64,000 bases of DNA from Isoetes taiwanensis. Lineage: Eukaryota; Streptophyta; Lycopodiopsida; Isoetales; Isoetaceae. Below, one piece after another: positions 1 through 61,565 of the stretch; position 1 is the first letter of the stretch; every line of letters starts with the position of its first letter. The position numbers and the translations under genes are program-made. The stretch is from NCBI GenBank assembly GCA_021234155.1, contig JAJEKV010000056.1:6848618-6912617 (forward strand), read 5' to 3'. A model generated the notes under the pieces. That model made no database searches. It saw nothing but the letters and a program-made list of their open reading frames with translations, and was not told the origin of the DNA.

Positions 1-57
1 GTCTATTAGAAGATCTTGCTTTGTGATTCTGAGCTGATCATATATAGTATTTTTTGA

Positions 58-34795: not shown

Positions 34796-34889
34796 GCCTT
34801 GACTTGCCAGGAGGTTAGCTTAGTATGTTTCTTAGTGAGCCTTAAGTTCTGGCTCATGTATTCTAGTTAGTAGAGTGCATGTGCCAGAA

Positions 34890-35692: not shown

Positions 35693-35705
35693 AAGGGGGG
35701 GAGAA
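35693..35705 (+). promoter_or_regulatory. Polypurine tract
   Basis: AAGGGGGGGAGAA directly precedes the LTR start TGTGACG, the expected site and orientation for plus-strand DNA priming in a plus-coding retrotransposon. Confidence 0.8.
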
Positions 35706-37349: not shown

Positions 37350-37950
37350 TGAGGCTGCCTTCCATGCACACAGAAGGATTAGGAAATTCTTGTGCATGTT
37401 GGAAGGATTTGCATCAGGAATCAAAAGATTGCCCTACCACATCAGAACGGCTCCTTAGCTTAGCATCTGAGACCAACGACCGTGCTTCATGACCAAAGCG
37501 CTGCATCCAAGAAGGTTTACATTAACATTTTGCACCATATGCTTGCTCCTACAAAATAAAAAGCTCCTGTGTAATGATATTGGCCATGTAGCAACAATGT
37601 TGCATCAAGATGGACACAAATCGTTCACATAATAAAAAATCTTACCCAGAGAATTTCTCGTCAAGTGAATGGAGTTAGATTCCAAAAGGAAGATTTGATA
37701 CTAAGTAGAATGTAGCAGAAATGCTTGCTAGATGTTTAGGAAAGCTTCTTACTACTGTTGCATCAAGATAAAATGCTTGGATAAGAGGCACCTGCAGAAA
37801 AAAGACCAGATGCCAAGGATGAATGTATTTGCCTACTTTGTTTGGCAGAAGCATTGGATTATGCATGAGGGAACAATAGTTGCCCCTACAGATATCAACC
37901 GATGTGGCATTGGCATCAAGATTTTACATACCAGAAAAAACTAGGTACAA
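37350..37950. other. Unassigned DNA between chromovirus LTR and LINE
   Basis: No coding recognised. TTGCATCAAGAT recurs at about 37602 and 37758. Confidence 0.4.
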
Positions 37951-38109
37951 TAGACTTCATATAGAAATTCCGCAGCAGCTTCTAGAGGAAGATAACGATG
38001 CCATTTCGGCATCTTAGAGACTCCGTTAAGCGTACATGCAAAGAAAGTTAAAAAGGGAATGACCTTACTCATAGATCGGAGTTTGCTTTGCCTGCAAAAG
38101 GCAATACAG

Positions 38110-38800
38110 AAGAATATAATCAGAACACGTATGAAGGCTCCTTTTCTCTTCAATATAGCAGCAGAAGCTCTCTCACAGTTATTCCTGCAAGCATCTGCAG
38201 ACGGTCTCATTTAGGGACTAGAAATGTGGGACAATTCTTAACAAATCTGTAACCAGTATGCAGACGACTCATTTCTGTTTATCGAGGCAGAGGAAAACAA
38301 TATGTCATGTGCAGGACAACTACTGGCCACCTTCTCAATAGCTTCAGGTTGCCTCATAAATTGGAAAAAATGCTCAGTGCAGTGGCCTTTGGAGAACAGG
38401 CATCCCATATGTTTGGAAAGCTTACCATGGAAAATTATCCCTGAGGGTGAACATTCCAGCTTGTTAGGAATCGCAGTGGGCATTAACATCACTAGTGCAC
38501 GAATATGGGATGAAATGCTACTAGGCCTACATAAACACCTAAATTGGTGGAGGGTAGCAAAGTTATCCCTTGCAGGGAGGATTACTGTGGCAAAACATGT
38601 GCTAAGTAATACTTATGTATACATATCATCAATTCTACTTGCTCCGAGAGAGAAGGTGCAGGAGTTAGAAGGGCTGATTCGAAACTTCGTCTGGGGAGGT
38701 AATGAAGAAGGTGCAACGATCAAAATTGCTTGGTGGAAGTGCAAGAGGGACAAAACAGAAGGGGAATTGGTATGTTTGACATAGTCTTACAGAGCAAAGT
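38110..38800 (+). pseudogene. LINE reverse transcriptase, C-terminal half
   Basis: APFLFNIAAEALSQLFLQA (the G-C-P-L-S-P-x-L-F-N block) is followed, after two stops, by NQYADDSFLFIEAEE with an intact YADD catalytic box near 38255-38275. The next block is FSIASGCLINWKKCSV (ASGL-N-x-x-K-S), then KLSLAGRITVAKHVLS, both diagnostic of plant L1-like LINEs. The first stop-free frame starts at 38302. Confidence 0.88.
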
Positions 38801-39925
38801 ATTAATAGCCAAATTCATATGGATGATTCTTCAGGAAAAGGTGAAGTCTCCAGGTTTGCACCTCATCAACCAAGCTCTATTATATTCTTGTAAGCATAGT
38901 AAGCCCTCCGTCAAGGTCTCGCTTCCATGGTCTCTCTTTTTTGATCTCAAGCCATGTAAAGAAGCCTCCCCCTTCTTGAAGGGTCTTATTTCGGCTTGGA
39001 ATGCCATAAAGAAACTATTCACGCTTGATATCAGCAAATTTAAAGCAGGGACCTCCCCTCCATGGTGGGTACCAGTGGAATTGCACAATAAACAAGGCCC
39101 ATTAGGTATAGTGGCTGACACGAGGATTGTGAAGAGATGGAAAAACTGTGGTATACATTCTTGTGCTCAGTGGTATATGGGAGAGCACCTGGCCAGTTGG
39201 GAAGCATTTCAAGCATGTTTTGGTTTAAAGGAGGCAGACAAGATAATTTGGGAATGCGTGGCTTCCGTACTCCCAAACACAATAAATAGAGGAGATCAAA
39301 GTCCATGGGTCGTACACAGCCAAACAAGTTTGTGAAGTCATGCTACAGTAGTTTGAAGACTAAGGGATTTCTTCCAGTATCTCCCAAGTGGGAGCTAGTG
39401 ATCACGGAGGACATCCTTAAAAACATCTGGAGAAACGCTTGGCTGAAATTCCTTCCTCCACGAATCAACGCCTTTCTTTGGCAAGTGATCCACAGGATCC
39501 CAAGGGTCAATCATCTAGTCTCCAAATGGGAGAATAACGTGAGCCCACTTTGCCCTATGTGTGAAGAGGAAGAGGAATCCATAGAACATTGTCTGGTGGA
39601 ATGTGGGATGTTGCATGAAGTATGGGCCTGGAGTCTGGATAGGTTCGAATACCCCTTAGGAACCAAAGAATTGCTGCTAGGAATTCTCCCTCCAGAATGG
39701 TGTCCCAAGAAGAAGATTTATTTTCACATAGCCAGGGCCTGGACGATTTGGTCAATATGGAAAAGGAGGAATGCCCGAGTCTTTGCTGAGAATCAGGAGG
39801 TATTCATATCATCAACTCAGCTACTTCACCTGGTACTTGAAAGACTTAAAAAATTTAGGCTAGTTTTTAAATGTGAAGAAGAGGTAAAGGAAGAAATATG
39901 GGGCACCTATTTTAATCTGGTCTAG
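38730..39925 (+). pseudogene. LINE C-terminal region with zf-RVT domain
   Basis: 38730-39335 and 39305-39925 are two overlapping frames joined by a shift. The second has WRNAWLKFLPPRINAFLWQV and CPMCEEEEESIEHCLVECG, the Cys/His set of the reverse transcriptase zinc-binding domain (C-x2-C..H-x3-C), then HIARAWTIWSIWKRRNARVF. The domain is thought to bind element RNA. Confidence 0.88.
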
Positions 39926-40076
39926 GTCGGGAAAGAGAATAGTACAAGCTGGAGCTACGTAGCTACCCCCATCTCATATTCGTGGATGGGTGCACCTCTG
40001 CCATGTGGCTTTGTATCATTCTCTCTAAGTAAATAAAATCTTTTTTATCCCTCAAAAAAAAAAAAAAAGTCCTGCT

Positions 40077-43000
40077 TCAGAGGTCATAGTTTAAAAGCAA
40101 AATAAGATTATTGTTTTCCTCGACTAAAGAATGATGTCCACGATGCCTTGGAGAACAACCATTCCATTTGATGTATGCTGGAATGTGGGAGGACAAGGTA
40201 TCCAAGTAAGCATGAAGGGAAGGTTGGCGTTGGACATGGTGAGAAGCTGCAAACTCTTGAAGGAGAAATTTGAACTCATCCTCTATGGCTTGCAACCTTT
40301 GACACGATTGCAAGATCGCTTCTTTCATGGTGCATCCAGAGGTTTCTCTCATTATCGACAGGGCATTCCATAAGACACCTTCATCCTGTTGAAAAGAAAG
40401 AATATCATTAGTAAAGATAAAAAAAGTCAGCAACAAGGTTATGCATTCGTTGGAAGGTGGGATTGGACCACAACGTCTCATCGATTTCTACACTGACAGT
40501 GGGTGCGACGAGGGGGAAAGTAGCAGTGCAACCGATGGTTTTTCTACGGATACGCATGTAGCGAGTGAGTTGCAGAGGGGGCGTATGGGGGATAACTTGG
40601 AGATAAGACTGTTGGTGGAGGCCATACAAAGTAAGAGGCAATATTTTGGGAGAAGAGGGACCATTAAGCACAGTTTCATTAAATATGGACAATACCTTGA
40701 ATTGTGGACTTTTTATAAAACAGACGCTTCGATAACACTAACATGCATCCCCCGCAAGTGCCGCATATGCTTCTGCAACAAGCGTAGGAATCTTGACAGT
40801 GTTTGGTAGCCTCTTCTTATTGGAAGGACTCCAAGCATAGTCGATACTCTCTATCTCAATGCGGTCACTAGCAGTCGTCGGCCTCCATCTCTTCTTCCAA
40901 CAATTGACATAGTTGGCTGGGAACACCTGGTTCCTAACAGGGACAGGCTCCCACCAAGTGACATGGATAGTCTCGAAGTTGTCTTTCTTATCATCCATTT
41001 GGGGTTCCTCTGTAGCATACCCTTAGCCATGTTGGGCACAAGACATCATCAGGGCGCGCCAATACAAACATGCCCTTCTTCAAATCCTTGAAAGGATTGA
41101 ATTCTGGTACGGGCTTATCCTTCAATGGACCAACATAAGAAGGAGTAATGGTTGCAATTGGCTCCACCACAGCCACCACGTCAGGTACGTCAAGTCTATC
41201 TTGCCTAGTGCGCGGCCAAAAGTCCTCGTAAGGACCTTCCACGTTGGTGATGTTACCCAGATGCTCCAAGAGTCCCATCCAATATTCAATTGTCGCCGTA
41301 AATTGTGTTGTATATTTGGCCGTCTCTGGTGTGCCCTTCTTGTTCGTCGAGCATGCGACCCAATGGAGGATATGCTTATGGATACTGTTTCGGAGCTGAC
41401 CAATGTCTTTCACCGAGCTCTTAGGTGCTAGCATCTTCGGATTTCCAGATGGCATTAGGGGTTTTCCATCCTCTCCTTCTTTCCACATTCTTATTCTACC
41501 AGCAGGTAGCCAATCCACGAACGTAGGACGAGCCTTATGGTACATGACAGGCCAGTCACCATTCGTAGCAAACCTAAAGGTTAGAGGCTCAGTGTGACCA
41601 GTCAATCTATCTTCCCCATCAGGGATATACCCTTCTATGAAACCTTTCCAATCTGGAACCTTATGAACAAGATATGGCACTGGCTTGTTGAGATTGCACG
41701 TATGAAATTCATACAACAACTCGGGCATGGTTAGCACTTCGGCTTTCCTCAAGGTAGATGAAAAATTACCAAACATAGCATCTATATCATCATGTGTATG
41801 GCCAGGCATCATAAAACCTAACTCAATCTCCTCGAAAACACCCAGATATACAAGGTATGAAAGATATGAGAATACATACCTATTTTTGTTTTGTCCGGAT
41901 GCATTGTCTAGTTGCAACATCAATTTGCGAGGGAGGCTCTTCAATGAGGGTCCCTCAGGTTGAGGGATGGCAACGGGGATGCTCTTCCCAGACAGCGACA
42001 ACTTGGACGCTAGCGCAGTGGTGTCACGTAAGGCCCTTGCCCAATCTGGGACTGAAGGATCAGACTGTGCAAGATGGCCTCCTGCAAACTCATTAGACAG
42101 CTCCAACCTTTTCAGAATACTATTCAAGGAACCTACGTGGAAGTTGGAGTCGTCTGACCACAGATCCAAAGCAAAATTTCCATAGCACCCTCTCCCATGG
42201 CCGTGGGTAAGTGCACCTGCCAACGAAGTCTTTAGCTTATCTAGTCTCCAAAGAGACTTCACGGAATCGAACAACTTTGGAATCATAGTCTTTGCCTGAT
42301 CCATTTTGTCGTGAATGATACATACATAGTCTCGAGGATGCCTGTGGGATAACAGTCTCCATGACCAGTACTGGGTGCGACATGATTGCTGCTCTAGTCG
42401 ATGTGCCCTTCTCTGATCATGCAATATTCTCCTTTCAGCCTCATCCTTAGTCTTCAACAGCTTCGTGCGGATAACCTCGCAAGTGTCACACTTGGAGAAT
42501 GCATTCTTCTTAGCAATACTGACGTCCTTGAAGCTACGTCTCCACGTCCTATGAAATCCTGTCGGAGATACCGTCTTGCCTGTGAGTGCCATCACTTCAG
42601 CGTTGACCTCTTCGAGAATGCATGTCTTCGTAAACATAGCAGGCAACTTCCTCACGTTTTCTCTAATCCCATCATCATTCCTCCTGCTACGGTGAGGTAA
42701 GGATTCACAATTTTCCTTCACAAACATGGAAAAAACAGCCTCTGAGGCCAAGGTCGCCGCACGTGCTTTCATCGTGCCTGAATTGCCATGCTCAGCCTTT
42801 CGAGCACCGGAGCGGAATTCTGCCTTCCACTTGAGATACCCCGACTTTGAAATCCCAAGACCAAGGTACCAAGCTCTCTCACAGACACTGACGCCTTGCA
42901 AGACTAGCCGATGTACCCTTTTACCCTTCAGATTGTTGCCTAACATATCATACACAAAAGTGGTCCTGTCACTCGATTTCATGGCGAAGAAATCCTTTCG

Positions 43001-43939
43001 CATGTTTATAGCTTGATCCCTACTGAATTTCTCACAACATCTCTGTTTACAACACATGGTCTTCCTATACCTCAAGATGGCTTCATTGGTTGTTAGCCGA
43101 TCTATCTTTGGAGGCTTTGATGCTTTCTTTGGCTGACGAGAATGGAAGGTGTATTTGCGCTTCTCGTACTGCGGATGCTTCTCAAGCTCCGAGCTCCCCT
43201 GGCTGGATGTGGTATCATGCTGTTCCACTGGTGCTGCACTTAAAATTTCCGATACCTTCACCCCACAAACCCTAACTAGATCATTATTCCACCTCAAAAG
43301 CATGCCCGCTTTAGGTATTGTCAAACATGCCTGACACCGGAAGTTCACCTCTGTCGGAGGGGGAAAGCCTTCAGTAACAGACACTCCTACGGTCTTCATA
43401 CCCAAGAACTGGTCACATACTGCATCGTCTGGACCAGTGAAGGATATAAATCCCTTCGCTGCAGGGATGGCAGCACAAGAGTGATAAATTTCGCAGTCAG
43501 TCTCCAGTAGTGTGTACCTAGTTAGCGACATAGTGTCTCTCTTGCTTCCCACTCGTTGTCTTTTGGATGCTGATGGCACGTCCACGACATTGGAGTCCTG
43601 AACATCACTTTCCCTCCAGAGAATGAAGGAACCCAGCGCCTCACCTAAGGTTCTTGCATCTGGAGTAGGCCAACAGAGAACATGATGCCCCTCAAACACA
43701 GCTAGAACACCAACACTCACAAGTCCATTTGGGATGTCTTTGAAGTGGCATCTCTCCATGGCTCCTATGGCTCCTTTGGCAACTGCCCGACCGTCTTTGA
43801 ATAGGTACACCTCCTGCACAAAGAAGAAATGAATCCGTTGATCCGCAAAGTTTTGGCAGATGGTCCTTACCAGGTGAAATTGGGTGACTGCCCAATTTGC
43901 TTCTTTTTGTAATGGTTCTTGGAAGGTGAAATTGGGCAC
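40077..43939 (-). CDS. Transposase-like protein with DUF7869-like (RNase H-fold) motifs
   Basis: A 982-codon open frame (40,991-43,939). The first ~42 codons are probably intron and palindromic leader: TTCTTTGTGCAG ends at 43,814 and coding-like sequence begins EVYLFKDGRAVAKG. Residues 43-112 resemble an N-terminal module seen in other plant element proteins (TLGEALGSFILW), which I recall as DUF8039-like. Cys clusters lie at 296-302 (CCKQRCC) and 483-487 (CDTC). The DUF7869-like part has IIHDKMDQAK (about 541-550), LMLQLDNASGQNKNRYVF (about 673-690) and MPGHTHDDIDAMFG (about 711-724), which would supply three acidic residues of a nuclease core. The frame continues after a shift near 40,995 (MDDKKDNFETIHVTWWEPVP) to about 40,738. 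A good acceptor at 40,386 precedes a likely last exon to 40,077. Expected role: element mobilisation. Confidence 0.75.
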
Positions 43940-44355
43940 CCGCCCAATTTCCTCCCTGCTGTAATCAGAAAGACTAACTATGTATCATTTATGAAAGCAC
44001 CATGTGATGGCAAATTGGGCGGGTGCCCAATTACAACTGCTATGGAGCACTACAAGGAGCATGAAATTGGGCGCCCGCCCAATTTCACCTAGTAAGAAAA
44101 ACTGCAACAGGTAGCAAATTGGGCGGGCGCCCAATTTCAACTCCTTAAGACCACCGCCTTGGGGGAGGAAATTAGCACTAATTTCACTGCATGGAACACC
44201 GCAAAGTGTCTTGTTCCAAGAAATCCTTAGTGGTGAAATTGGGCTGGGCCCCCACCCCCCCGCTGGTGCTGGTCCTTAGAGTTGAAATTGGGCACCCGCC
44301 CAATTTGCTACCGCTGCGCCTTTTCTAGCGTGTGAAATTGGGCGGCTTCAATTTC
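43876..44355. repeat. Palindrome cluster 1 (about 8 copies) at the 5' end of the transposase gene
   Basis: Interrupted palindromes of the family with core TTGGGCGGGCGCCCAA (or its complement TTGGGCGCCCGCCCAA) start at about 43877, 43929, 44011, 44063, 44118, 44233 (degenerate), 44284 and 44333. Variants have ACCC or GACT at the centre, while arms AAATTGGG and CCCAATTT are kept. The first two overlap the start of the transposase frame and its first intron donor. Confidence 0.9.
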
Positions 44356-44431
44356 ATGCTCCTTGTAGTGCTCCATAGCCCAATTTGCCATCACATGGTG
44401 CTTTCATAAACGATACATAGTTAGTCTTTCT
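43967..44431. repeat. Large imperfect inverted repeat (arms ~100 and ~84 bp)
   Basis: 43967-44069 matches the reverse complement of 44348-44431. Shared segments include AGAAAGACTAACTATGTATC, GAAAGCACCATGTGATGGCA and TATGGAGCACTACAAGGAGC. The second arm lacks ~20 bp, which removes half of one palindrome. It covers the transposase 5' leader and could form a cruciform or a hairpin transcript. Confidence 0.88.
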
Positions 44432-44459
44432 ATGTATGGGTCTATCTGCCCATACATAG
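44430..44459. repeat. Perfect 11-bp hairpin
   Basis: CTATGTATGGG, 8-nt loop, CCCATACATAG. It adjoins the outer end of the large inverted repeat, whose arm ends in the same TATGTAT word. Confidence 0.85.
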
Positions 44460-44879
44460 TTGCCTAGGAATCAAACTACCCTACTTGGCCCTGCACATCT
44501 ACCTGGGTATGAAATCGATTTGCTAACCTAGCTGGAATAAAATATGGCCATTCGCATCTACCTGGGGTGTCTAATTGGGTTGTAACCAGGACAGCTTCCA
44601 TGCTACCCAACATAGATTGTAGGCTACGTCAGTTATGTTTGGGGGACCGGACATACATCTCAAATCTTCTATTTATTTCTCAAATCGCATCAATAATGTT
44701 CTATACCAATCCAGGCATCTTAAAATCCCCGCATGCAACCTACAGTGGCAAATAATAAACGTAAAAACCGAAAGAAATTTACCTTTGGTGAATCGCACGC
44801 CATCCGCTGGAGAAGTAGCCGCCCAAGAATGTGGGTGAACGAAAAACTTAGCTGCTCCGCTTCAGTGAGAGTATTTCAA

Positions 44880-45120
44880 AGTTCAATTCTCCAACTAAAG
44901 TTTGATTGGGCGGGTGGGCCCGTAATATATATTCAAATTCAAATTCGGGCGGGACGGGGCCGTGATTTCAAATCCAAGAAATTCAAATTGGGGCGGGCGG
45001 GCCCGTATTTTCAAATTCAAATTGGGGCGGGCGGGCCCGTATTTTTAAATTCAAATTTGGGGGCGATTTTTTTAAATTCAAATTGGGGCTGGCGGACGTC
45101 CATATTAATTTCAAATTCGG
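44880..45120. repeat. About five ~40-bp GC-rich repeats
   Basis: AATTCAAATTGGGGCGGGCG followed by GGCCCGTATTTT recurs at roughly 40-45 bp spacing. The TTGGGGCGGGCGGGCCC part looks like a derivative of the palindrome family with one arm altered. Confidence 0.75.
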
Positions 45121-45285
45121 CATTTAATGGTTCCGTCATTTAAAGTCTCTTTTTATTGTTATTTCTTTTGGTCTATATTTAGTTAAAACGGTCTATTTTT
45201 AAGACTCTTCATTTGCATGGCTGCCACTTGTCATTCAGCTGTTCAATCTCATCACCCATTCTTAACCGCTTGCTCATTCATTTGA

Positions 45286-45480
45286 GATTCTTGCTGCGCC
45301 TATCGACTTGAGAGTGATTGCGCCTGCGCCTTTCTGCATGAGAGTGATTCTTGCTGCGCCTATCGACTTGAGAGTGATTGCGCCAGCGCCTATCGACTTG
45401 AGAGTGATTGCGCCTGCGCCTATCGACTTGAGAGTGATTCTTGCTGCGTCTATCGTCGTTTGAGTGATTGCGCCAGGTTT
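45286..45480. repeat. Minisatellite with ~30-bp unit, 6-7 copies
   Basis: The unit CGCCTATCGACTTGAGAGTG, followed by ATTGCGCCTG or ATTCTTGCTG, repeats to about 45480. The minus-strand 83-codon frame over it (repeats like RRRRNHSQVD) arises from the repetition. It sits in the space between the divergent genes, where promoters are expected. Confidence 0.85.
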
Positions 45481-45746
45481 CGATTCGTCTAAGCGCTGAC
45501 CCTGAGCTTCCAGGCCCCAATGGTTTCATGGAAAAACGACCCTTGAAGGAAGGAAAAGGTACTGCTTTTATGTTTAAGTTTAGTTTATTATATTACTGCA
45601 GGCGATAAGCCACTGGCCTCTGCACCAAATAACCCTCTACATCCACACACCCTCTGCTTCCATGCTTATAAACCTACTCTGGGTGTCTCCAAACCGATCT
45701 GGCCGGTCTGGCGGGTCTTTGCTTGCTAACCTCCTCTGGTCTGGCA

Positions 45747-46484
45747 AATTGGGCGGGCGCCCAATTTGTCTCCTCATGCCTCTGTTGCTCCATCCAAAAC
45801 TCCTCTGGAGTGCCAAATCGGGCGAGCGCCCAATTTGGAACTCTAAACCCGTCGTGCTTGCTAACCTCCTCGGTATATGGCAAATTGGCGGGCGCCCAAT
45901 TTGTCTCCTCATGCCTCTATTCCTCCATCCAAACCTCCTCTGGGGTCTCAAATCGGGCGGGCGCCCAATTTGGGACCCTCTGGCCCGTCTGTGCTTGCTA
46001 ACCTCCTCTGCTCTGGCAAATTGGGCGGGCGCCCAATTTGTCTTCTCTTGCTTCGTTCCTCCGTCCAATCCTCCCACAGGGTGCCAAATTGTCTTGAGCC
46101 CAATTTGGGACCCTCTGGCCCGTCTGTGCTTGCTAACCTCCTCTGCTCTGGCAAATTGGGCGGGCGCCCAATTTGTCTTCTCTTGCCTCTTCCTTCGTCC
46201 AATCCTCCCCTGGGGTGCCAAATTGGGCGGGCGTCCAATTTGGGACCCTCTGGCCCGTCTGTGCTTGCTAACCTCCTCAGCTCTGGCAAATTGGGCGGGC
46301 GCCCAATTTGTCTTCTCTTGCCTCTGTTCCTCCGTCCAATCCTCCCCTGGGGTGCCAAATTGGTGAGCCCAATTGGAACCCTCCTGCTTTCACGGCAAAT
46401 TGGTGAGCCCAATTGTCTCTTCTTTCCTCTGTTCCTGCATGCAAACCTCCTCTGGGTGGCAAATCGGGCGGATGCCCGATTTGG
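45747..46484. repeat. Palindrome cluster 2 (about 12 copies), upstream of the ParB-like gene
   Basis: Copies start at about 45747, 45814, 45880, 45950, 46018, 46085, 46150, 46218, 46287, 46356, 46396 and 46461, mostly 65-70 bp apart, inside a ~135-bp higher-order repeat containing GCTTGCTAACCTCCTCTG and TCTTCTCTTGCCTC. Five copies are degenerate. Long open frames on both strands here come from the repetition. A splice acceptor (GTTATGCAG, ending 46589) follows five bases before the ATG of the next gene, so the cluster is probably in a 5' UTR intron or promoter. Confidence 0.9.
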
Positions 46485-46594
46485 CACCCTTTTGCCTCTG
46501 TTCTTGCTTTTAAAACTCCTCTGTTCTCCCCTACCTTGTTTCAATGCTTGCGTACACTACTAATGGGATTAATGAATGATGTTATGCAGCACCC

Positions 46595-48199
46595 ATGGCC
46601 AGAACTAAACAAACTGCACGTGTACCTGGAGCTGGCCCTCCGATGGCACAGGCATTTGCTGCAGCAAAGGAAACAGAATCGAGCATTCAGTTCAATGGTA
46701 TTGAAGTCGTCCCAGAGCTAATGAGTAATGTAGCCGACAAGTTTTCATGGTGCATAGAGGTAGGCCCAATCCACCCTGGCTCAAGCACAAATCATCTCAA
46801 GGATCTGTGCTTATACTTTGCTGAGCCGGGGAGTCAGAGGACACAGAATGCTGGTATCGCAATTGACATGACTGTGAGCAGTGAGGTTGACGGCGAGATA
46901 GATCTTGTCGTGCAAGACGTGCTTGATAAGTCATTTCAGGGATACAGGTTACCCTTTGAGACTTACGATCCTCAGCTAATGCATGCAAGCATCACTGAGG
47001 CTCCACATTCGTGTCAGTCCAAGAGCTGGGTCCTCGCTTCTTACGAAAGCCTTGAAAGATCTGGACTCACCAAACATGGAGATATTATAGATGGGTTTAA
47101 CACAGTTAGACAATGCATACTAGATCATAAACAGAATCGATCAAAGGCCCTTTACACAGAATATCATGGGAAGAACCAACCAAAGGTCTATGACACGCCT
47201 TGGTTGAGGTCACGTTATGGAGTTTCTAGGAAGAATGACGGACCGAAGGGCACAGAGAAGCCAACATCTGTGTCCTCAGAAAAAAAAACTGTTCCTAAAA
47301 AGAAAAGATCAGAAACAACAACGAGCAAATTGATTCTTGGTGGTATGCGAAGAACATCACGTAGCCCGGACCCAAGCATTCCATCGCAGGAGATATCTGA
47401 GGAGTCTCCCCCAGAAATGCAAGCAAGAAAACGAAGTCGGCACGAGGCTATAGCTTCCTCGTCGAAGAAAAGAAGAGACTCGACTCCTCCATCCACGTCA
47501 GGTGGATCCGATGGGGGGAGTTCGACAGGGACAGGCTCAGAGGAAGATGACAGGCAAATTGTTAAGTGCTCGACATCTGGCGGGGCCTTGACCCAGGAAA
47601 GCAGACGTGAGCTGTCACAAAGTGCATTGATCAACATTAAGCACAGGGAAAGGATCTATCCTCTTGGAATTGATTTCGAAATAGAGGTGGATATATTTAA
47701 AATGCATCAAGCACCTGCAAATATGACCTGCAGGGTCATCAGTCCTGAACATGTAGATACACTCTACGAATCGTTTGTTAATGTCCAGATGCATCCACCT
47801 TGTGCGGATGTTGTACACTTTGATCCAGACACTGGACGTGCACTGAAGTGGAAGAAGGCCAGCGATTTGGAAAATGCAGAATTCTGGATTGTAAATGGCA
47901 ATCACACCACTGCAGTTGCCCAAATTCTTGTTAATCAGGCCCTCGAATGGCCACCAGAAAGGGCTCATCTGAAAGATCTTATCTTTTTCTTCTACGCTAA
48001 AAGAAAATGTCGCGTGCTGGCAGGGAATCTCACTCCTACTGAATATGTGAAGGTTGGCCAGGAGAGCAACGATATCACAAAGAATACCATCCATCAGGAT
48101 GTTTACTTTGAGCAAATACAGCAGCTAAGGAATCAATGGGCAATCTATGGAAAGCCGAAGAAGGGAAAGCGTGGACTATCCCAAGATAGCGCATATTCA
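46595..48199 (+). CDS. Protein with exact histone H3 N-terminus and ParB/sulfiredoxin-like domain (first coding exon)
   Basis: 535 codons to a GTAAGT donor at 48200. The start ATG has a strong context (CACCATGG-like: CCCATGG) right after a splice acceptor. Residues 1-9 are MARTKQTAR, identical to histone H3 with its Met; after Met removal the chain would begin ARTKQTAR with Lys4. There is no H3 globular domain. Residues 30-205 look globular but are unrecognised. 210-330 is Ser/Lys-rich with nuclear-localisation-like clusters (PKKKRS 234-239, RKRSR 279-282, KKRR 291-294). Residues ~350-460 fit a ParB-like fold: RVISPEHVDTLYESFV, PPCADVVHFD, and WIVNGNHTTAVAQIL, where GNHTTAVA corresponds to the G-x-H-R-x-x-A motif. 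ParB-like domains bind or act on DNA/nucleotides. Proposed: nuclear DNA-associated factor of the element. Confidence 0.8.
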
Positions 48200-49053
48200 G
48201 TAAGTCAATTCTAATTGTTCTTGTAGTTTTTTTTTCTCATCAAATTGGGCGGGCGCCCAATTTGGGACGCCCTCATGTGTATATGCATGTTAAATTGCAC
48301 CCCGTTGGCCATCAAATTGGGCGGGCGCCCAATTTGGGAAGCCTCCTTGTGCACTCACCCCGTTAAATTGCACCCCCTTGGCCATCAAATTGGGCGGGCG
48401 CCCAATTTGAGAGGCCTCCTTGTGCATTCACCCTGAAATTGGACCCCCTTGGCCATCAAATTGGGCGGGCGCCCAATTTGAGAGGCCTCCTTGTGCATTC
48501 ACCCTGAAATTGGACCCCCTTGGCCATCAAATTGGGCGGGCGCCCAATTTGAGAGGCCTCCTTGTGCATTCACCCTGTTAACTTGCACCCCCTTGGTCAT
48601 CAAATTGGGCGGGCGCCCAATTTGGGAAGGCTCCTTGTGCACTCACATACTTAAATTGCACCCCCTTGGCCATCAAATTGGGCGGGCGCCCAATTTGAGA
48701 GACCTCCTTGTGCACTCACCCTGTTAAATTGCACCCACTTGACCATCAAATTGGGCGGGCGCCCAATTTGGGAAGGCTCCTTGTGCACTCACCTACTTAA
48801 ATTCCACCCACTTGACCATCAAATTGGGCGGGCGCCCAATTTGGGAAGGCTCCTTGTGCACTCACCTACTTAAATTCCACCCCCTTGGCCATCAAATTGG
48901 GCGGGCGCCCAATTTGAGAGGCCTTCTTGTGCACTAACCCTGTTAAATTGCACCCCCTTGGCCCCATGTGCATCTCATGTTAGCTTGTGCATTTCTCAAT
49001 TTTGAGAGCATATATTTCAAAAATGCTAAGTTTACTATGCTGTGCAGGATTAG
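48200..49053 (+). other. Large intron carrying palindrome cluster 3
   Basis: Donor GTAAGT at 48200. Acceptor candidates are TGTGCAG at 49047 or, six bases on, GATTAG at 49053. Only the second avoids an immediate in-frame stop and opens LAIAKQTLKKLSMRDYDYF. The intron is mostly filled by the repeat array. Confidence 0.65.
48241..48916. repeat. Palindrome cluster 3: ten copies at a 71-73 bp period
   Basis: Near-identical palindromes start at 48241, 48313, 48385, 48457, 48528, 48601, 48674, 48747, 48820 and 48893. Each has 11-bp arms (CAAATTGGGCG / its complement read across CGCCCAATTTG) around a 2-bp GG centre. Spacers are also similar to each other (GGCCTCCTTGTGCACTCACC, CACCCCCTTGGCCAT), so this is a tandem repeat of a ~73-bp unit. 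The palindrome is better kept than the spacers. Confidence 0.95.
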
Positions 49054-51084
49054 CTCGCTATAGCGAAACAGACATTGAAGAAACTTAGCATGCGCGATTA
49101 CGACTACTTCGTGTACTTGGATGACGAAACTTGGAATATGTGCCTACAAGTGGCTCAGTTGTTCTATGAAGACCAACTAAAAGATGAATTGGGTGAGACG
49201 ATAGTGGTTAAGGACCGCCGCTGAGAATGTTCACGAATAACAAGTGCAGACCCTTAAAGTCCATGCATCCAAAGGATTTGCAAAGACTGTTGACAGAGAT
49301 CATGACAGGCACCACGTACATCAAGACCACTAAAAATTACACGGGTAGGCGTGTCATGAAAATCCGTCTTGGAGAATCGAAGAAGATTGGCACCGCCGAA
49401 ATGCACTCCTTAAGTACCTGAAAGATGTAAAGAAGGTCAAAGTTGAGAACATGGCAGATTTGAGGAAAATTCATCCCATATTCACGGAAAATTTGATGTT
49501 AATGTTCGCTAATAGTGTAGGTGAATGGGTTGATAGCCGCAAGGAGGCAAAAAAGCTCAACCTTCCAAAGGCTCTTATCCTTAAGATTGATGAGTATCTG
49601 CGCGGACCGGTGGAAGAGGGATCTAAATCGTTCAAATGCTACCGTGTCAGTCCTCTGGGGATGTCAGTTGATGTGGTCAATACCTCTGCTCGTTTTATCG
49701 GATGTGATTTCAGAAATATCAGGAAATGGAGCAAGGAGGATTACCAGAAGTTCTTGGACCAGATTAGTGCGCTAACGGATCAGCAACTATATTGGATCAC
49801 GATCTTTATCAGTCCAGATCGTTTGAGTGAATGCTTGTCCGCCATGAAGACTATAGACGGAGGTAGTCGTGTATGGGTGGGAGCGTACCAGGATCCTAAA
49901 AAGAAAAACCCTTCCTCTCGTTCGCGAAGCCGCGGACTCTTGTTCGTAAATGTATGTGGCGAGAGACCAAGCAAATGCCCCCGCTATGAATGATCCGAAT
50001 ATATGCTTCAACGACACGGACCATCCTCAAGAGTATTCAAGTTTTCGCAAAGACTTGAAAGAAGCGGAGGACATAGAGAAGAACCTCCCCGATCATGAGT
50101 GCGCAGCAGGTAACATGATTTTAACTTGTGTCTCTGTTCATTTCTTTTCAATACCACCTATAACGATTGTCTACTTTCCTTCAGCATACTGGTTGTATCG
50201 ACCTTGGGGTGACAAGAGTGTGGCAGGAGGCGGGGGTGCTCTTTTGCCACATCAATTAGATTCCAGGACATGCACGTACCTAGTGCGGAAATTTATGCTT
50301 GAGGGTTGCAGTGTCCTTGACTTCTTCTCCGGAGGAGCCTTTAGCCGTGCAGCTGTGTGTGAAGGGTATAAATCCACTGCATTTGAAATTATACAGCTTA
50401 AACTTGTTCAGATATTTGATCCTCGACGTTATGCTGGACGAAAAGAAATCGAGAGCCCGTGCATTGCAAAAGAGAGCTGAGGGAAAAAAGAAAGCAAGCG
50501 GCTCCAATGTACCTACAGTAGCGACCACTCCTCCACCTCCTTGTCCATTCCCTGCACAAACGGTGCAAGAGTTGCAATCCACTCTTCGGATGTCTAAGGA
50601 TTCTCTCACAGACCATTTAAGAAAGTTTGCAGGTTTTGGAGCAAAGGACATGTCTTTCTTTAGAAAGAAGAAGGATAACATTAATGCTTTGGCGGGCACT
50701 ACACTAGTGTCCACCCAAGATGTGATCGAGGGTAGCTCGAAGTTTACGCAGCTACTCCTCAAGGATCAAGACCCTTCTGTTGTCTTGGAGACACAAGAAG
50801 CTCAACCTGTGGACCCGCTACCATCAGAGCAAGAAAAGGATGTCGAAAAGGAGAAGGAGGATGAGGAAGTTGAGAAGGAGGACGAGGAAGATGAGAAGGA
50901 GGACGAGGAAGATGAGAAGGAGGATGATGTTGAAATGGAAATTGAGAAGGATGCTCCTGACGCTACACTAACCTCTGAAGAATTCCTCGCCCAGATGGAA
51001 CTCCTTAAGCAAGCGGCACAGGCAGGGGGAGAAGAAAGCGAAGCTGCTCACACAACTACGTCAGCTGAAGGGGTGGACCCTTAA
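49054..51084 (+). CDS. Downstream exons: methyltransferase-like region with acidic tail, frame broken
   Basis: Continues the H3-tail gene. Coding-like frames are 49054-49213, 49227-49421, 49451-49993, 49950-50430 and 50430-51084, separated by four apparent 1-2-base shifts. A 75-nt intron (50110-50184, GT-AG) is likely. LLPHQLDSRTCTYLVRKFML then VLDFFSGGAFSRAAVCEGY (50313 onward) match the arrangement before and at SAM-binding motif I (V-L-D-x-F-x-G-x-G) of class N4/N6 DNA methyltransferases. The place of a D-P-P-Y motif reads SVDVVNTSARF, so catalysis is doubtful. The C-terminus has KKDNINALAG, Pro-rich and Glu/Lys/Asp-rich repeats (50,840-50,960) and stops at 51084. ParB plus DNA methyltransferase fusions are known in phage and bacteria. 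Whether the shifts are real is unclear. Confidence 0.6.
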
Positions 51085-51117
51085 GCACAAGGAGTATGTT
51101 TTGCTAGCACAGGGGTG

Positions 51118-51213
51118 CAAATTGGGCGGGCGCCCAATTTCGCATCTCTGATACTCAGTGTATATGTCTTTAGAGTGAGCATAGGGGTGCAAATTGGGCG
51201 GGCGCCCAATTTC
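51118..51213. repeat. Palindrome cluster 4: two copies 72 bp apart after the gene
   Basis: Starts at 51118 and 51190, same core and same spacing as the intron array, but with different spacer text (TCGCACCACTGTTACTCACT). Located 34 bp after the stop codon, in the 3' UTR or terminator region. Confidence 0.92.
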
Positions 51214-51435
51214 GCACCACTGTTACTCACTGTATATGTTTTTATAATGAAATTGAGTGAAAAAAACTTATGTACATTGACAAAGAAAATAAATACATGT
51301 CGAAAATTTTTGGTATTACTTTCCAATGTTTGGTATTCTTTTAGATAAAGAAAATACATAGGTCTTACAAGACACGGCTAATTCAACACAAACATACTAG
51401 ATAATAGACAACATGTAATAGAAAAGACCAAAGCT

Positions 51436-51936
51436 TCACTCTATGCCCACTTCAACCTCAATAAGATCCTCCAGATCAAACTCATCAATATGACTTCGAC
51501 TGAACAGATCCAGCCAGTCATCCAAGTTTTTGAGAGAGTGACCACTGCTGACGATGAGCTTGGTTACCAAACCTTCGCATTGTCTTCTTTGCTTCTTGTA
51601 AAGCTTCTTAAACAGAGGTCGGAACGTGTTGTGCATCCAAACGTCCTCCATTTTCAGCAGCCTTTTTAGTGCCTTTGCCCTGTAAATAAAGCGTTTCAAA
51701 GATATGAGGCAGTCCTCCAGCTCCACCCTACTGAGTTGTTCCTCATCGCCATTCCTTATCAACCCATCCCCTTCGAGGAGCTTCGTGAATTGGGCGCTAA
51801 CTTCTCTCGTTCGGATCTGGTTCATCTTGTTTTGTACCTCCAGCTGCAACTGATTCGCCCGACCTAAGATTGCCTCACTAATATGAGACTGCATTTCGGT
51901 GATGGTGTGTCCTCGTCTGCGCCTTGTGTCGACCAT
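51436..51936 (-). CDS. Small helical protein, 166 aa, unrecognised
   Basis: Starts MVDTRRRRGHTITEMQSHIS and ends in an acidic stretch (SHIDEFDLEDLIEVEVGIE). It appears mostly alpha-helical and charged, with a basic start, a Glu/Leu-rich middle (VELEDCLISLKRFIYRAKAL) and a Lys-rich segment (FKKLYKKQRRQCEGL). No Cys/His clusters or membrane segments. It converges with the H3-tail gene, their stops being ~350 bp apart, across palindrome cluster 4. No family recognised; a single uninterrupted exon and lack of repetition support it being real. It may be a third element protein. Confidence 0.5.
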   Translation of the reverse strand: MVDTRRRRGHTITEMQSHISEAILGRANQLQLEVQNKMNQIRTREVSAQFTKLLEGDGLIRNGDEEQLSRVELEDCLISLKRFIYRAKALKRLLKMEDVWMHNTFRPLFKKLYKKQRRQCEGLVTKLIVSSGHSLKNLDDWLDLFSRSHIDEFDLEDLIEVEVGIE

Positions 51937-53300
51937 TTTCAGTGTCCTGAGATGAATGTAAGAGAGCGAATGAAGGTGCTTGCACGAAGAGATAGAATGA
52001 AGAGACGATGAAGAGACTGGATGAAGGGACCTCCTACCTCACCTACTTGCACGATTCCCGAAATTGTGGCTCCTTTTAATAACAAGAAATGACGAAATCT
52101 AAAAATTCGCATTGGGTTCCACGACCTGCCATGTCAGCTACCCGCACGGAATCCGAGTTCCTTTTTAAGCAAAAACCCTATATTTTCAAGAAAAAATCCT
52201 ATATTCTTACCACTGGCGCTAATTTGAGATATTTATGGACTTGTGGAAAGTCCATAAATAATGAAACTGTGCTTCCATTGGGAGGGTGTGACAAAAGGGC
52301 GAGAAAGGGAGGACCAATCAAAGAATGCATGGACTAAAGGGTGATGGAGATGATGGGGGGTGTATTGACCATCAAGGATGGAAAGGATGTGGGGGGCAAT
52401 ATTTTGGCTACAAATGTTGCCCTTTTGGCGAGTATTAGATTCTACAAAGGAATTCATGAGGTCATCAAAGGGCACCAGAAAGAGGCTGAACATAACAGCG
52501 GCGAGTGCAGCAGGAAAAGGGGCAGAATGAAGGAACGACAACACCAGCAGAGGCACATCTGATTCTTCAAGTTTTGGATCGCACACATATTGGCGCAGCC
52601 AGGCATGCGCTTCTTCTCTGATTTGCCCAATCTCCGGATGGCAGCGCCATGGTATGCTGGATCTTATTTGCAAATCCTCTGTTTTTTCTGTCACTCTGCA
52701 TCGCATATTCAAATGATTTTTAGCCTGCATAGAAATGCAAGGTTTTTTTGAATGCACATTCGCACGAATTTGAGCGTGCATGCCTGTTTTCGGCCACGAA
52801 ATGCAAGGATTTGTTGAGCCTCTGTAGCCATACAAATCGTTGTTGTAGCCATGGCTTCCACAGAATGATTTGCTCGCTCGTTGTTCTGTTGTATTTATAA
52901 ATTGAGGTCTTTTTCGGTGCCATCCTATATTATAATGTTATTGCGTGAGTGTTGGACCCAGCCCTAATCTTAACGGCCCAGATTCGACCAAACTGATGGT
53001 GGGGATGAGGCCACATCATAAGGTTTTAGGGTTTGCGAGGGTGGCTATGGCACCGTTAGTTTCTAGAACGATCATTCATCTGTTATTCTATTCGTGGGCG
53101 GCAAGAAAGGAGACAGAATAAAATTGCAATCTTTGCATGACGAGCAGAAGAAATCTAGCATGGTTTGGTACTTTTTGTGTGAAGATTTTGTCAGTTTCTA
53201 TGTGTCCATGAAAAAATCGTTGCATGATTGGGTGAGAGAAATCCAAAAGAATCAGATTTAGGTCTACAATGCTGCAGCGGCGAGAAACAGAGGAGCTATG
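51937..53300. other. Mostly unassigned; one long minus-strand frame
   Basis: The minus strand is open from 52,835 to 52,233 (200 codons), including SSIPWRCHPEIGQIREEAHA and a hydrophobic run LVLSFLHSAPFPAALAAVMF. I recognise no family, it lacks a convincing start, and it may be chance. The region may include the right end of the candidate transposon. 53,000-53,300 shows nothing. Confidence 0.3.
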
Positions 53301-53964
53301 GCAGGGTGGTTTGGGATGACGCTCAGCACTTCATCGAGTCAATGAAAGAATATGTCTTGATGCTAAATATGTGCCAGTATAGTTGCATAGTTGATCTTTT
53401 CAGTCGTGCAGGGCTTTTGAATGAGGCAGAGACTTTACTCCAGACTGCATTGGTTGGAAGTCTTTATTAGCTGCCTGTAAAACATATGGCAATGTGGTCC
53501 TAGGTAGGAGATGCTTTACCGAAGTTCTTAAATTAGATCCTCAGGATGCTGCTGGATATCTTCTTATGTCAGGGATATATTCAGATTCTTGCATGTGGAA
53601 TGATGCAGTCAATGTAGAATTTCTCAGACATTCAACAGGTGCGTGGAAAAAACCTGCAAAGGCATGGATCGAGATCAACAACAGGGTCCATGAGTTTGTA
53701 GTTAGAGATAAAAGGCACCCGCAAAGTGCGAAAATTTATGCTATGCTGAAGAAGTTATGGATCCAAATGAAAGAGACAGGATACATGCCTAAATTGGACT
53801 TGGTTTTGCAGCCAATGTCTGATGAGGATAAGGAAGATGCCTTATGCGGTCACTGTGAGAAGCTGGCTATAGCCTTCGGACTGCTGAGCACATCTCCACA
53901 TGCAACTCTTCGGATAACCAAAAATTTACGAGTGTGTTTGAAGTTGAATTTCGGTCTGGCATAA
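53300..53964 (+). pseudogene. PPR-DYW RNA-editing factor fragment
   Basis: Last PPR-like repeat and E/E+ motifs: YSCIVDLFSRAGLLNEAETL, then after a one-base shift near 53,470 LGRRCFTEVLKLDPQDAAGY and YLLMSGIYSDSCMWNDAVNV, WIEINNRVHEFVVRDKRHPQ. It enters the DYW deaminase domain, where GHCEKLAIAFGLL corresponds to the H-x-E zinc/catalytic block with Ser changed to Cys (H and E kept), and LRITKNLRVC. The frame then leaves the family before the C-x-x-C-H block and DYW end. The N-terminal PPR array is absent. Such proteins edit C to U in plant organelle RNA; this is a nuclear fragment with no function. Confidence 0.88.
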
Positions 53965-55590
53965 ATCTTATCTGACATCATATGCGGCTACTTGGCGCCA
54001 AGGTATACCCAAAGTGGGCTTGGGAGTTCTCCTAATCTCGGACTTGCTTGCTTTGCTTAAATCTTCTGGTAGCTATGCCCTAGAGGCTCTTTCTCACAAA
54101 GAACACAGGAGATACGCAGTGCAGCCGAGTTCTCCTTCTTTTCTTTTTAAATTTTTGCCGAATGGTATTGTTCTTGCATTATATCTACTGTGTAATTGAG
54201 ATATTGCTGCTGTAGTGAATCATGTTATATGTTGTTGTAAATCCAGCGACTACAAGGCAGTGTTTCTAGACAGATATCGAATTTGGGGTTAATTCTGGTG
54301 ATTCTATATTTGCAGTACATATCATATGAAAGGGTAATATTAGCACCTGAAGTTCTGGACAGTGAATCATTTCTGCAAGTAGGTCTCCAATACAACAATG
54401 ATTATGCAAAAATAAGTCCAGAATTAGATTGTCTAAAAGCAGTTTACAAGAGATGTCAGCTTTGCTATGTGATGGAATTTTGACCGGTGTGACAGTCATT
54501 TTTAGCTTCTGCTCATAGCAGAAATATATGTCCTCAGTTTAGGTGAGCCTGAGATAGCCCTGAGGTGCCACAGTAAAAGTGAAATTATTGTGGTTTTGGG
54601 GCCTTATGGACAGTACTGCTTTGCCTGCTTTCAAACTTGCACAATGCAGATGCTTAGATATGGTGGTGCTTAGATATGATGGCACTGTTGCATCCAAATT
54701 TAGGGTGAAGCGACCATGTTATATGGCAGTCAGGATGTGCATAAGGCGGCTAGGGAGCTTTTCGCTTTGTGCCTAGAGAGATCTTCCACCAAAGAAATAT
54801 GAATGATGCTACTGTTGCAAGACCAAGTGACAAGTTTTCATTTTGCAGATTTCTGACATGGCGAGAATAAGTGAAGGAAAAATTACAAATCTCTCAAATC
54901 AAACAAAAAGGGAACTGGTTCTTATCTTGAAAGAAGCCTCTGCTATGGAGTTTGCTGATGGATTGGAAACGCTATGGAGTTTGCTGATGGATTGGAAACT
55001 CTGTTGCCAAGTTGACAAACCAGTTGGCAAATGCATGGTCTGTTGATCTGATTGAAGAGAGAGCATACTATTTGATTTGCACGAAGGTATTGTTGCCAAT
55101 TTGATTTGCTTCAAGAAAGAAATAAGGACCATGTAAAGCTTTTGGTCCACTCCAAAAGCAGATGGCAGAGTAATGGCATCTCCAAGAAATCTGAATGAGC
55201 AGGTGACAAGTTGTCAAGAGTTTGTAAAATTTGCTGACATTTATTGCCTCTGTAGTATATGGAAAATCATTTATTGCCTCTGTAGTTTATCTCCTGTCGG
55301 CTTGATTGATCAGGTGTACGGCATGTTAGCTCCCTCCTATTTGCATGTGCAACCATAAAACGGTAAAGCATTGGATTGCAATGCCTGGCTTTGAGGACCC
55401 GCAGTAAAGTAGCACAGAATATTAGAGCATAATAAAAAACAACATTCTTATTCCTGTTTACCATCTCAATGCATCTTTTATACGTTATTGTAAAATCTTT
55501 ATATATTAAAGCATCAATCACACTTTAAGTCCACTTCCAAGACATCATAATAATCACATGTAAAGCCCACCAATGGTGGGCAATTTACTA
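53965..55590. other. No gene recognised; small tandem duplications
   Basis: Only short frames without features. A 28-bp direct duplication GCTATGGAGTTTGCTGATGG.. lies at about 54944-54999, and TTTATTGCCTCTGTAGT is doubled at about 55240-55290. Confidence 0.5.
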
Positions 55591-55644
55591 GTAGTCTATA
55601 TTTCCAAAGGCCAATAAACACCTGTCCCTCTTTGTCGTGTGGTC

Positions 55645-58029
55645 TTAACCCAAAATCGGAACACTATTCTCTTTCCTTTGCTCGTCTGCAAGGAACCTTT
55701 TTTCCAAAGCAGCCTGCCCATCATATTCTCCTTTCCCGTGGCCTGAGCCAAAATAATTCCACTGCATCCTAATTTTATACCTGTTATAATATTGGGCCAC
55801 ATCCAAATAAAAGGCTCGAGAACATTTAAACTGAGCAGCACACCCATCAGACCACATGACATGGTATTTGATGTGGCCAAAACCTTTTTGCATCATCCAA
55901 ATATGGTGTTTCTTGAGTGCAGCCTGAACAAAGAAAGCATTATGCTTCATAACATCGGAAACATACAAATGAACAGTTTTTTTTAGCTCGTCATTGACTT
56001 TCATCATGGTTATATGCATCAGAATAGTTATCTGGTCATTGTTCCAATGCTCGGACTGAACCTCCCTAAGTGGCTGCAAAGTATAGTTCTCTGCAAAGTC
56101 CATTACTGACAAAACAGAATCATCCCTCAAATTTTGCACTGATTTCTTGAATTGTTTGCTCTGCCAACTTGCTGAAAAGTTGTGAATAGTGAACTTTGTA
56201 AGGTGATGAAACATCTTGTCAAGCAATGTACCTGTACTCCCGCGTTCAGTAACAAGCTTCAGCCTCCTTGAAGTGCCAGCTTTGGAAGGTTCGTTCACGT
56301 ACTTGTAAACTTGCCATTCAATGTTCTCATTCTGCAACTCTTTCTCCTTAGGACAGATTTGAATATTTTCAGTGCCACAGCTCTGGCACTCTCCCTTGAG
56401 ACAGTCCAAACTATGCCACTCTTCGCCTTCCTTGTCATAGACCGTAGCTCTCCATATAGCACTAACATTTTGAAATATTTTAGAAGGAGTTTGGCAGACG
56501 CCATTGTTCTCATCTGCTGCACAAACACCACAAGAACATGTACAATTGGCATGAAATTTGCTCCTTAGGACGCTAAATGCTTTTCTGTATAGCTCAGCTT
56601 GTTCATGCTTCACGCAACAGCATGTGTTCCTCTCTTTCAACCTTCTCACACACGTAGGCTTAAGCAGCTCGAACATTCTGACGCTTCATGATGTTCATCT
56701 TTGAACATCTCATACAATTCACTCTGCAAGGAAAAAAGCGGCATGTATAAGTAAAATATAAATTAAAACTACTTACGAATTCAAAGATGTTGCAGACATT
56801 GCATTAGTTCTATGGCATTCAGACCATGATTTGATATACATTCAACTACTATAATACAACATCGTACATACTATATACATGATATGTATAAATATATAAA
56901 GAATGTACTCCAAAGCATTCCAGATGTACATAAAAAACTCAATATGTAACGAGGTCACACACAGTGTCACTGTGTTACAGATGTATGTTTTCAATACTTT
57001 TCTTATGGAGGGAAGTACATTTAAATACTTTTATGTATCACCCTATCTTTCAAAAGTATCTTGAGATCGGGAAAGCTCAAAATGTACTAGAATGTACTTG
57101 GGAACTATAAAAACTGAGACTATAAAAACACAGCCTGACTTTCAACACATTTTCTGCCTTCTGCCATATTGGATGTAATTGGAAGTACATCCAAGTACTT
57201 TTCCTGTTAAACATAGCTCATTCAGTACCTCCAAGTGTAAAAATACAATTATTGTAGTTGGATGTACTTCAATGTATGTCAGATACATCCCTTGCATGGA
57301 ATGCAAATAGGATTACTAAACTTATCCAGGGTGCACAGAAGTTAGCTTCTATCGAGCTTGCAAAAAAGAGGATTAAAAGACTTAAAACTGACCTGGGGCA
57401 TGTCCAAAAACTGGATTGGAAGTGTCCTTTTCTTCCCGACATCCCTGTACTTTGGAGAAGTTTTTGTGTGGGTTAACCAAAAATCATTTACCAACTGTTT
57501 GGTTGATTCCAGAAGCATGTCTGCCCTGGGTTGCCTTCCTGCCAGTGCCCACATATTAGCACCTGATAATGACATGCGCTTTCTTCTAATTGCAGCTTTT
57601 GTGAGGTTTCTTGCTTGCACTTGAAGAATTCTGGAGACTACTCCTTTTTGCTTGAGTTTTCCATTCTCACCAACAATCATTGATAACAGGGAATGCTTAG
57701 CTGCTAATTTATCATTGCTATTTGCTTGTTTCACTTCCTGCAGACCTTCACGGATATTTTGTAGCATAGTATCCTTCACAATTGCTTGCGCTGGATTTCC
57801 AATGGCAGGTTCACCTTTCATCCCGAACAATTTTCACTGCTAAAGCTCTCCTTTGCACAGGACGTAAATCTTGAACCTGATCATATATGAATTTAACAAT
57901 TTCATCATTCTTACGCTTCATTTTCTTTGTCACATTCCCGATATTGCAATCTTCTTGCGCCATTTCTGTTCCTTCGTTGTTCATCATGGTTCTTGCGTGG
58001 TTTAGGGTTAGCTGGAGGAATTCTGGCAA
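55645..58029 (-). pseudogene. Second DDE-like element protein (DFAEN / SDGAAQFK family)
   Basis: The main frame 56,676-55,645 (343 codons) has Cys-rich modules (CTCSCGVCAADENNGVC, CLKGECQSCG) and then the conserved blocks VMDFAENYTLQPLREVQSEH, WNNDQITILMHITMM, VMWSDGCAAQFKCSRAFYLD and NYFGSGHGKGEYDGQAALEK. The same block order occurs in transposon-derived proteins of many eukaryotes; Asp in DFAEN, SDG and the DG after GHGKG are candidate catalytic residues. Upstream exons lie at 57,830-57,342 (ending WLTHTKTSPKYRDVGKKR) and 58,029-57,811, with shifts. A good acceptor (TTTTTCCTTGCAG) precedes 56,723. The intervening 56.73-57.34 kb has GGAAGTACAT..AAGTACTTTT words. It lacks a shared repeat with the 40-52 kb element and is unrelated to it. 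Confidence 0.7.
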
Positions 58030-59409: not shown

Positions 59410-59424
59410 TTGATATCAAGGAAG
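59410..59424 (+). promoter_or_regulatory. Candidate primer binding site
   Basis: TTGATATCAAGGAAGC resembles, with mismatches, the initiator-Met PBS TGGTATCAGAGC. Position between LTR-like DNA and gag fits. Confidence 0.35.
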
Positions 59425-61559: not shown

Positions 61560-61565
61560 AGCACG

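Follow-up and report, generated by a model that had tools for sequence, protein, structure and literature searches.

The question raised by this locus is why a protein that is otherwise unrelated to histones begins exactly like histone H3, and whether this start serves the DNA that encodes it. Within the stretch of DNA analysed here (64 kb, hereafter the window), the plus strand encodes from the ATG at 46595 the peptide MARTKQTAR (46595..46621), which is identical to the first nine residues of H3, the Met included, as reported in the preliminary description. The corresponding ORF, 46595-48214, comprises 539 aa and opens with MARTKQTARVPGAGPP. Its sequence starts as MARTKQTARVPGAGPPMAQ, with 530 non-histone residues following MARTKQTAR, and the N-terminal H3-like peptide of the tail protein reads ARTKQTARVPGAG. 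A mimic of the H3 tail is expected to carry at least residues 1-4 of H3 in exact order, and the peptide carries them; residue 9 of the H3-like tail is V, and K9 of H3 is absent. The gene was modelled as follows.

46595..48199, plus strand: main exon of the H3-tailed gene in the gene model, 535 codons; the raw ORF extends to 48214
48200..49053, plus strand: predicted intron, with a 73-bp tandem repeat that holds 10 exact copies of the palindrome
49054..51084, plus strand: downstream coding sequence, interrupted by several frame breaks and taken to belong to this gene

The probability of meeting this peptide by coincidence was evaluated both by simulation and on real sequences. MARTKQTAR at 46595 was the sole match with at most three mismatches in the six frames of the window, and a first-order Markov model returned 1.7e-7 exact matches expected per window. 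Among 40 simulated windows, four mismatches was the best result in 35, three in 4 and five in 1. As an empirical control, a degenerate pattern coding for the peptide was searched in genome_contigs, a collection described as 257 Gb of prokaryote species genomes, where it matched 10 loci. Seven of these (L003, L004 and L006-L010) correspond to H3, as genes or as a first exon, and in our own reading come from contaminating eukaryotes. The three others comprised one locus reading MASTKQTAR on a 22-codon ORF (L001) and two exact matches outside histones, at the head of ORFs of 28 and 19 codons (L002 and L005), while no locus matched the pattern in viral_contigs. A random nine-residue coincidence therefore appears extremely improbable: exact chance matches do exist in very large sequence sets, as the two in 257 Gb demonstrate, but they head ORFs of 28 and 19 codons rather than one of 539 aa. 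Since the Markov expectation is so low and the non-H3 matches to the pattern occur only on ORFs of 19-28 codons, a chance origin of the peptide is practically excluded, in agreement with the earlier claim that chance was very unlikely.

The remainder of the protein was then compared with histones. No Pfam histone family was detected in the H3-tailed protein, and no Pfam family of any kind exceeded the cut-off in the main exon; the matches of the plus-strand gene (Ig_NUP210_9th, bPH_9, DUF3634, DUF268 and others) were all below it. The H3 signal is absent directly past residue 8, as the alignment of residues 10-60 with H3 residues 9-60 was equalled by 899 of 2000 shuffled sequences. Both an H3 remnant directly past the octapeptide and an assignment of the whole protein to histone H3 were thus rejected, and the description of the remainder as non-histone was upheld. 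A basic stretch at residues 211-288 aligned with H3 residues 7-91 at a level reached by 4 of 500 shuffles of the whole protein and by 12 of 1000 block shuffles, a score that we read as a reflection of composition. Further basic stretches occur in the main exon, e.g. PKKKRSE and RKRSR, together with WIVNGNHTTAVAQ, which by eye resembles a ParB-type motif; no DNA-binding domain was recognised in the protein. When the first 26 residues were used as a PDB query, the H3 peptide 7uqj was returned at an E value of 0.6. AlphaFold2 modelling of the 539-aa ORF, with one sequence in the alignment, gave a pLDDT of 34 and a pTM of 0.19, and the fold is not usable.

With the 539-aa ORF as query, the 7994 best-scoring candidates from 5.8 billion proteins included no homologue at E <= 0.001, and none was confirmed in viral_contigs. 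Residues 340-948 of a 948-aa read-through likewise had no homologue at E <= 0.001, again among the 7994 best candidates from 5.8 billion proteins. In the downstream part, the segment SVLDFFSGG within GALLPHQLDSRTCTYLVRKFMLEGCSVLDFFSGG (50320-50384) is similar to motif I of DNA amino-methyltransferases, with a weak match to phrog_498 (E 0.061). No Pfam methyltransferase family was found in this part and no catalytic tetrapeptide of a DNA methyltransferase was seen by eye; on sequence grounds the downstream part is perhaps an inactive methyltransferase.

The surroundings of the ORF identified it as part of a mobile element, as had been proposed. The best match between 34000-43870 and 48930-60000 was a pair of terminal inverted repeats (TIRs) flanked by a target site duplication (TSD) of CCATT, and from this arrangement the element, at 40666-52274, is a DNA transposon of 11,609 bp that is complete from TIR to TIR. 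A DUF7869 gene lies between the repeats, so that the inverted ends, the duplication and the gene expected of a DUF7869-bearing DNA transposon were all found. Besides the H3-tailed gene, the element contains the features listed below.

40666..40690, plus strand: left TIR, 25 bp, with 92% identity to the inverted sequence of 52250-52274 (E 6.2e-4)
52250..52274, minus strand: right TIR, the inverted partner of 40666-40690
40661..40665 and 52275..52279, no strand: left and right copies of the TSD CCATT, directly abutting both outer ends
40991..43813, minus strand: exon 2 of the DUF7869 gene (PF25273, 5.4e-40)
43814..44782, minus strand: modelled intron of the DUF7869 gene, with 6 palindromes, two of which overlap the raw ORF upstream of exon 2
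44783..44803, minus strand: modelled exon 1 of the DUF7869 gene, encoding MACDSPK, donor 9.8 bits
51436..51936, minus strand: third ORF, 166 aa long and matching no Pfam family

When one CCATT was removed, the minus-strand ORF of the flank continued across the insertion site; the ORF reading across the restored empty site matched no Pfam family, and a PDB search with it returned none. The left-flank minus-strand ORF 40077-40481 resembles terpene synthase family 2, falling slightly short of the curated cut-off (E 2.4e-4, 21.4 bits vs 23.7), the element being inserted beside terpene-synthase-like sequence. Elsewhere in the window we observed the remnant of a DYW-type PPR gene at 53494-53961 (DYW_deaminase, 2.5e-16), which points to a land plant as the host, a Ty3-type retrotransposon at 59721-63431 that is split over several ORFs (gag 2.1e-12, reverse transcriptase 2.9e-18), and a 343-aa minus-strand ORF at 55645-56676 that has the motifs WSDGCAAQFKC and HGKGEYDG and no Pfam family, and by eye looks like part of another transposase. 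Positions 1-11400 are G+C-rich (0.52-0.59), with similar ORFs and short words recurring at steps of about 1.1 kb; this region is a possible long-period repeat, and no tandem or ungapped repeats were found in it at strict settings.

The DUF7869 protein is probably the transposase. Exon 2 carries a frame break near the C-terminus, the remainder being located by eye in ORF 40738-40998. The joined exons aligned with protein P0002 from Met1 (1 of 500 shuffles equally good) and with P0001 from residue 9 (0 of 500). As the seven residues MACDSPK are little conserved, with only M and S common to P0002, the exon 1 model rests on length and phase. Ten DUF7869 relatives were found, e.g. KC19_3G000300 of Ceratodon purpureus, which shares this domain with the minus-strand gene of the element. 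None was confirmed in viral_contigs among 109 pattern matches, and a PDB search with the DUF7869 profile gave a single, meaningless match (E 0.77). No MULE family was detected at E <= 1 in the six element ORFs scanned against Pfam, and DUF7869 does not occur as a term in the literature searched, which for the most part did not include subscription papers.

A mimic of the H3 tail would need a free N-terminus, and the position of the translation start was analysed in detail. The preliminary description had placed the ATG at 46595 in a strong start context directly after a splice acceptor. A plausible acceptor, TTATGCAG, does end at 46589 and looks good by eye, with a branch-point-like motif TACTAAT about 25 nt upstream of it, also noted by eye, while in an unspliced RNA the frame ends at a TGA at 46577-46579. 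The context, on the other hand, proved mediocre: GCACCCATGGC has a C at -3 and is not optimal, only the G at +4 being in agreement, and it is similar to those of the ATGs at 45520 (GCCCCAATGGT) and 45528 (GGTTTCATGGA). The use of 46595 as the start was not confirmed either, as a competing first exon and intron can be modelled upstream.

45528..45558, plus strand: candidate first coding exon, encoding MEKRPLKEGK, phase 1, which would make the tail internal
45559..46589, plus strand: predicted intron, with 9 palindromes in a 68/135-bp tandem repeat

Only two donors of at least 3.5 bits, as scored with a position weight matrix, occur before the array in 44900-46560, namely 45559 (AAG/GTACTG, 5.5 bits), which is the best, and 44914 (4.2 bits). 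Joining 45559 to 46590 places the ATG at 45528 in frame and produces MEKRPLKEGKAP-MARTKQTAR. Removal of the palindrome intron 45559-46589 would then yield the protein MEKRPLKEGKAPMARTKQTAR, in which the H3-like stretch is internal and, devoid of a free N-terminus, no classical K4-tail mimic; lysine or arginine modifiers might nevertheless use it as a substrate, or it might function in the manner of the internal VRT motif of DPPA3. Frame and phase of this junction fit, and the DUF7869 gene is itself modelled with a first coding exon of seven codons before its own palindrome intron. However, a random join has a one-in-three chance of being in frame, the ATG at 45520, 8 nt upstream and out of frame, overlaps 45528, and the donor-like sites at 46363 and 46403 inside the array score slightly higher (6.0 bits each vs 5.5). 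Use of donor 46403 would bring the ATG at 45877 into frame, with translation running through the array, and a start there is unlikely. Moreover, a Met is expected at the position preceding ARTKQTAR in two cases only, namely if translation begins at the tail or if the start codon was copied along with it; with an internal tail it has no explanation other than derivation of the block from an H3 gene. On balance we consider an internal tail rather unlikely and a start at 46595 somewhat probable; the rival in-frame start and the architecture of the sister gene weaken the claim of a free ARTKQTAR N-terminus, which remains plausible.

A copied block might also have no function beyond initiation, the element having captured from a host H3 gene its splice acceptor and start, with the nine codons serving only as a translation start. 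The inclusion of the Met in the match and the acceptor lying 5 nt upstream are in line with such an event, and small H3 first exons exist, the contaminant locus L004 being an H3 first exon that seemingly ends soon after residue 14. A recent capture, however, should carry more H3 sequence, and none can be traced directly past residue 8, while an old one should show drift within the octapeptide; furthermore, no other tail match with up to three mismatches occurs in the window. Passive capture thus seems to us unlikely. What favours a selected mimic is the exact eight-residue H3 end placed right after the Met, with 1.7e-7 matches expected per window, together with the sharp loss of identity after residue 8, as reader proteins contact the first few residues of H3. 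Against it count the rival start at 45528, the C at -3 and the lack of a homologue in the searches, as well as the frame breaks downstream, the failure to recognise a DNA-binding domain and a CpG content giving no sign of escape.

The noncoding DNA of the element provided a second peculiar feature. A 22-bp palindrome, AAATTGGGCGGGCGCCCAATTT, is present in 27 near-copies (up to 5 mismatches) between 43877 and 51212, 18 of which are exact in either orientation. All 27 are located inside the element, with none in the remainder of the 64-kb window and no exact copy in viral_contigs. According to the gene models they are exclusively intronic or intergenic and none falls in a modelled exon: 6 belong to the DUF7869 intron, 9 to the intron before the tail, 10 to the next intron and 2 to the gap between the plus-strand gene and the third ORF.

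51119..51212, no strand: 72-bp repeat with two exact copies of the palindrome, in the gap that separates the 166-aa ORF from the H3-tailed gene

Three of the four blocks are tandem repeats of 68-73 bp, and neighbouring palindromes are mostly 66-69 or 71-73 bp apart, with some at 52 bp and a few longer gaps. The palindrome is a candidate binding site for an element-encoded protein; that the H3-tailed protein itself might bind it is a guess.

The CpG observed/expected ratio was 0.63 for the element, 0.63 for the left flank and 0.57 for the right flank. The region 44804-45527, between the two divergent genes, showed a value of 1.11 and contains 30-bp tandem repeats at 45294-45474, while the other parts of the element measured ranged from 0.42 to 0.75 and the array introns were depleted (0.42-0.52). 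CpG depletion was discarded as a sign of methylation escape, as the element equals its left flank and escape of the whole element finds no support in these values. An Rfam scan of the window gave no match and a bacterial promoter scan of 44000-46700 was uninformative.

Taken together, these data allow us to propose, tentatively, that the exon is an auxiliary gene part of the DUF7869 transposon and that its start is a selected copy of H3 residues 1-8, acting as a mimic in an anti-silencing factor specific to the element. Translation would begin at Met 46595 and, once this Met is removed, the protein would display a free ARTKQTAR end. It would be recruited to the element by the 27 noncoding palindromes, either directly or via another protein of the element, and the tail would occupy host readers of the unmethylated K4 region of H3, most likely a ZMP-type PHD finger in plants; alternatively, the tail may itself accept K4 methylation and resemble active chromatin. 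In either case the outcome would be that the element stays expressed. The confinement of the palindrome arrays to the noncoding DNA of the element, as given by the gene models, is in keeping with an anti-silencing role and recalls the VANC21 targets. In its most specific form, a transposon-encoded H3 decoy tethered to the intron arrays, which captures ZMP-type readers of RNA-directed DNA methylation (RdDM) or takes a false K4 mark and thereby leaves the element unsilenced, the proposal is doubtful.

The choice of reader was guided by published specificities. According to the available part of PMC7617993, ZMP, a Pol IV-associated protein with a PHD finger, reads unmethylated H3K4 for RdDM, whereas SHH1 reads unmethylated H3K4 for the same pathway and also methylated K9. 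A ZMP-type reader is thus favoured and SHH1 was demoted as the main target, because the peptide has a V at the position of K9. The CG-maintenance route through UHRF1/VIM is not favoured and is retained as a parallel only, since the PHD finger of Arabidopsis VIM1 is reported, in a title cited in PMC7617993, not to recognise the H3K4 peptide. The earlier suggestion that the tail could recruit or block the K4 machinery is supported in part: N-terminal H3 mimics that bind readers are known (PAF15, Sgo1). The missing K9 and the report on the VIM1 PHD finger weaken two obvious plant targets.

A transposon protein bearing an exact histone tail of the kind read by the silencing machinery would suggest a concrete and testable mechanism; if true, selfish DNA would join the viral and host proteins for which histone mimicry is known. 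Among the matches listed in the literature searched, no mimic of the H3 N-terminus was reported to be encoded by a transposon, a corpus with most subscription papers outside it. We conclude that the H3-like start is a real, non-chance and unusual feature of an under-described transposon, and that its attractive interpretation is partly supported, resting on an unproven start and on a single decayed copy of the element with frame breaks downstream of the H3-tailed exon.

VANDALs are MULEs, and among the closest known systems VANDAL21 of Arabidopsis with its VANC21 protein resembles the element in layout. The Isoetes element differs in having DUF7869 in place of a MULE-type transposase and a 22-bp palindrome as its motif. 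In the accessible portion of PMC5735166, the targets of VANC21 are described as YAGTATTAY motifs in tandem repeats of noncoding DNA, including the introns of VANB21 and VANC21, and that of PMC10398659 reports that RdDM re-silences VANDAL21 noncoding DNA; no H3 tail is mentioned for VANDAL21 in these portions of the two papers. As far as these sources go, both are plant DNA transposons that carry several genes besides the presumed transposase and short tandem motifs in their noncoding DNA, their own introns included, the latter according to the gene models in the Isoetes element.

N-terminal mimicry of the H3 tail also occurs in SNAG-domain factors, which recruit the chromatin enzyme LSD1; these are host transcription factors and the SNAG domain is only distantly H3-like. 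Closer parallels are described in the consulted parts of three further papers. UHRF1 reads residues 1-ARTK-4 of H3 through its PHD finger, on which the N-terminal H3-like stretch of PAF15 binds with a Kd of 2.2 uM vs 1.5 uM for H3 (PMC7060239). Sgo1 docks on Survivin through an H3-like N-terminal tail (PMC9253516) and mimics the H3 N-terminus with a free Ala-1, as the tail protein would, although the similarity is limited to AKER and Sgo1 is a host chromosome-segregation protein. In mouse DPPA3 an internal H3-like VRT motif and two helices block UHRF1 in competition with H3 (PMC11187062). Within the scope of these excerpts, PAF15 and DPPA3 resemble the tail protein as non-histone proteins with an H3-like stretch, N-terminal in the case of PAF15, and differ from it in being encoded by the host and in matching H3 over a short part only, VRT, instead of eight exact residues. 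PAF15 acts for the maintenance of DNA methylation whereas mouse DPPA3 acts against it.
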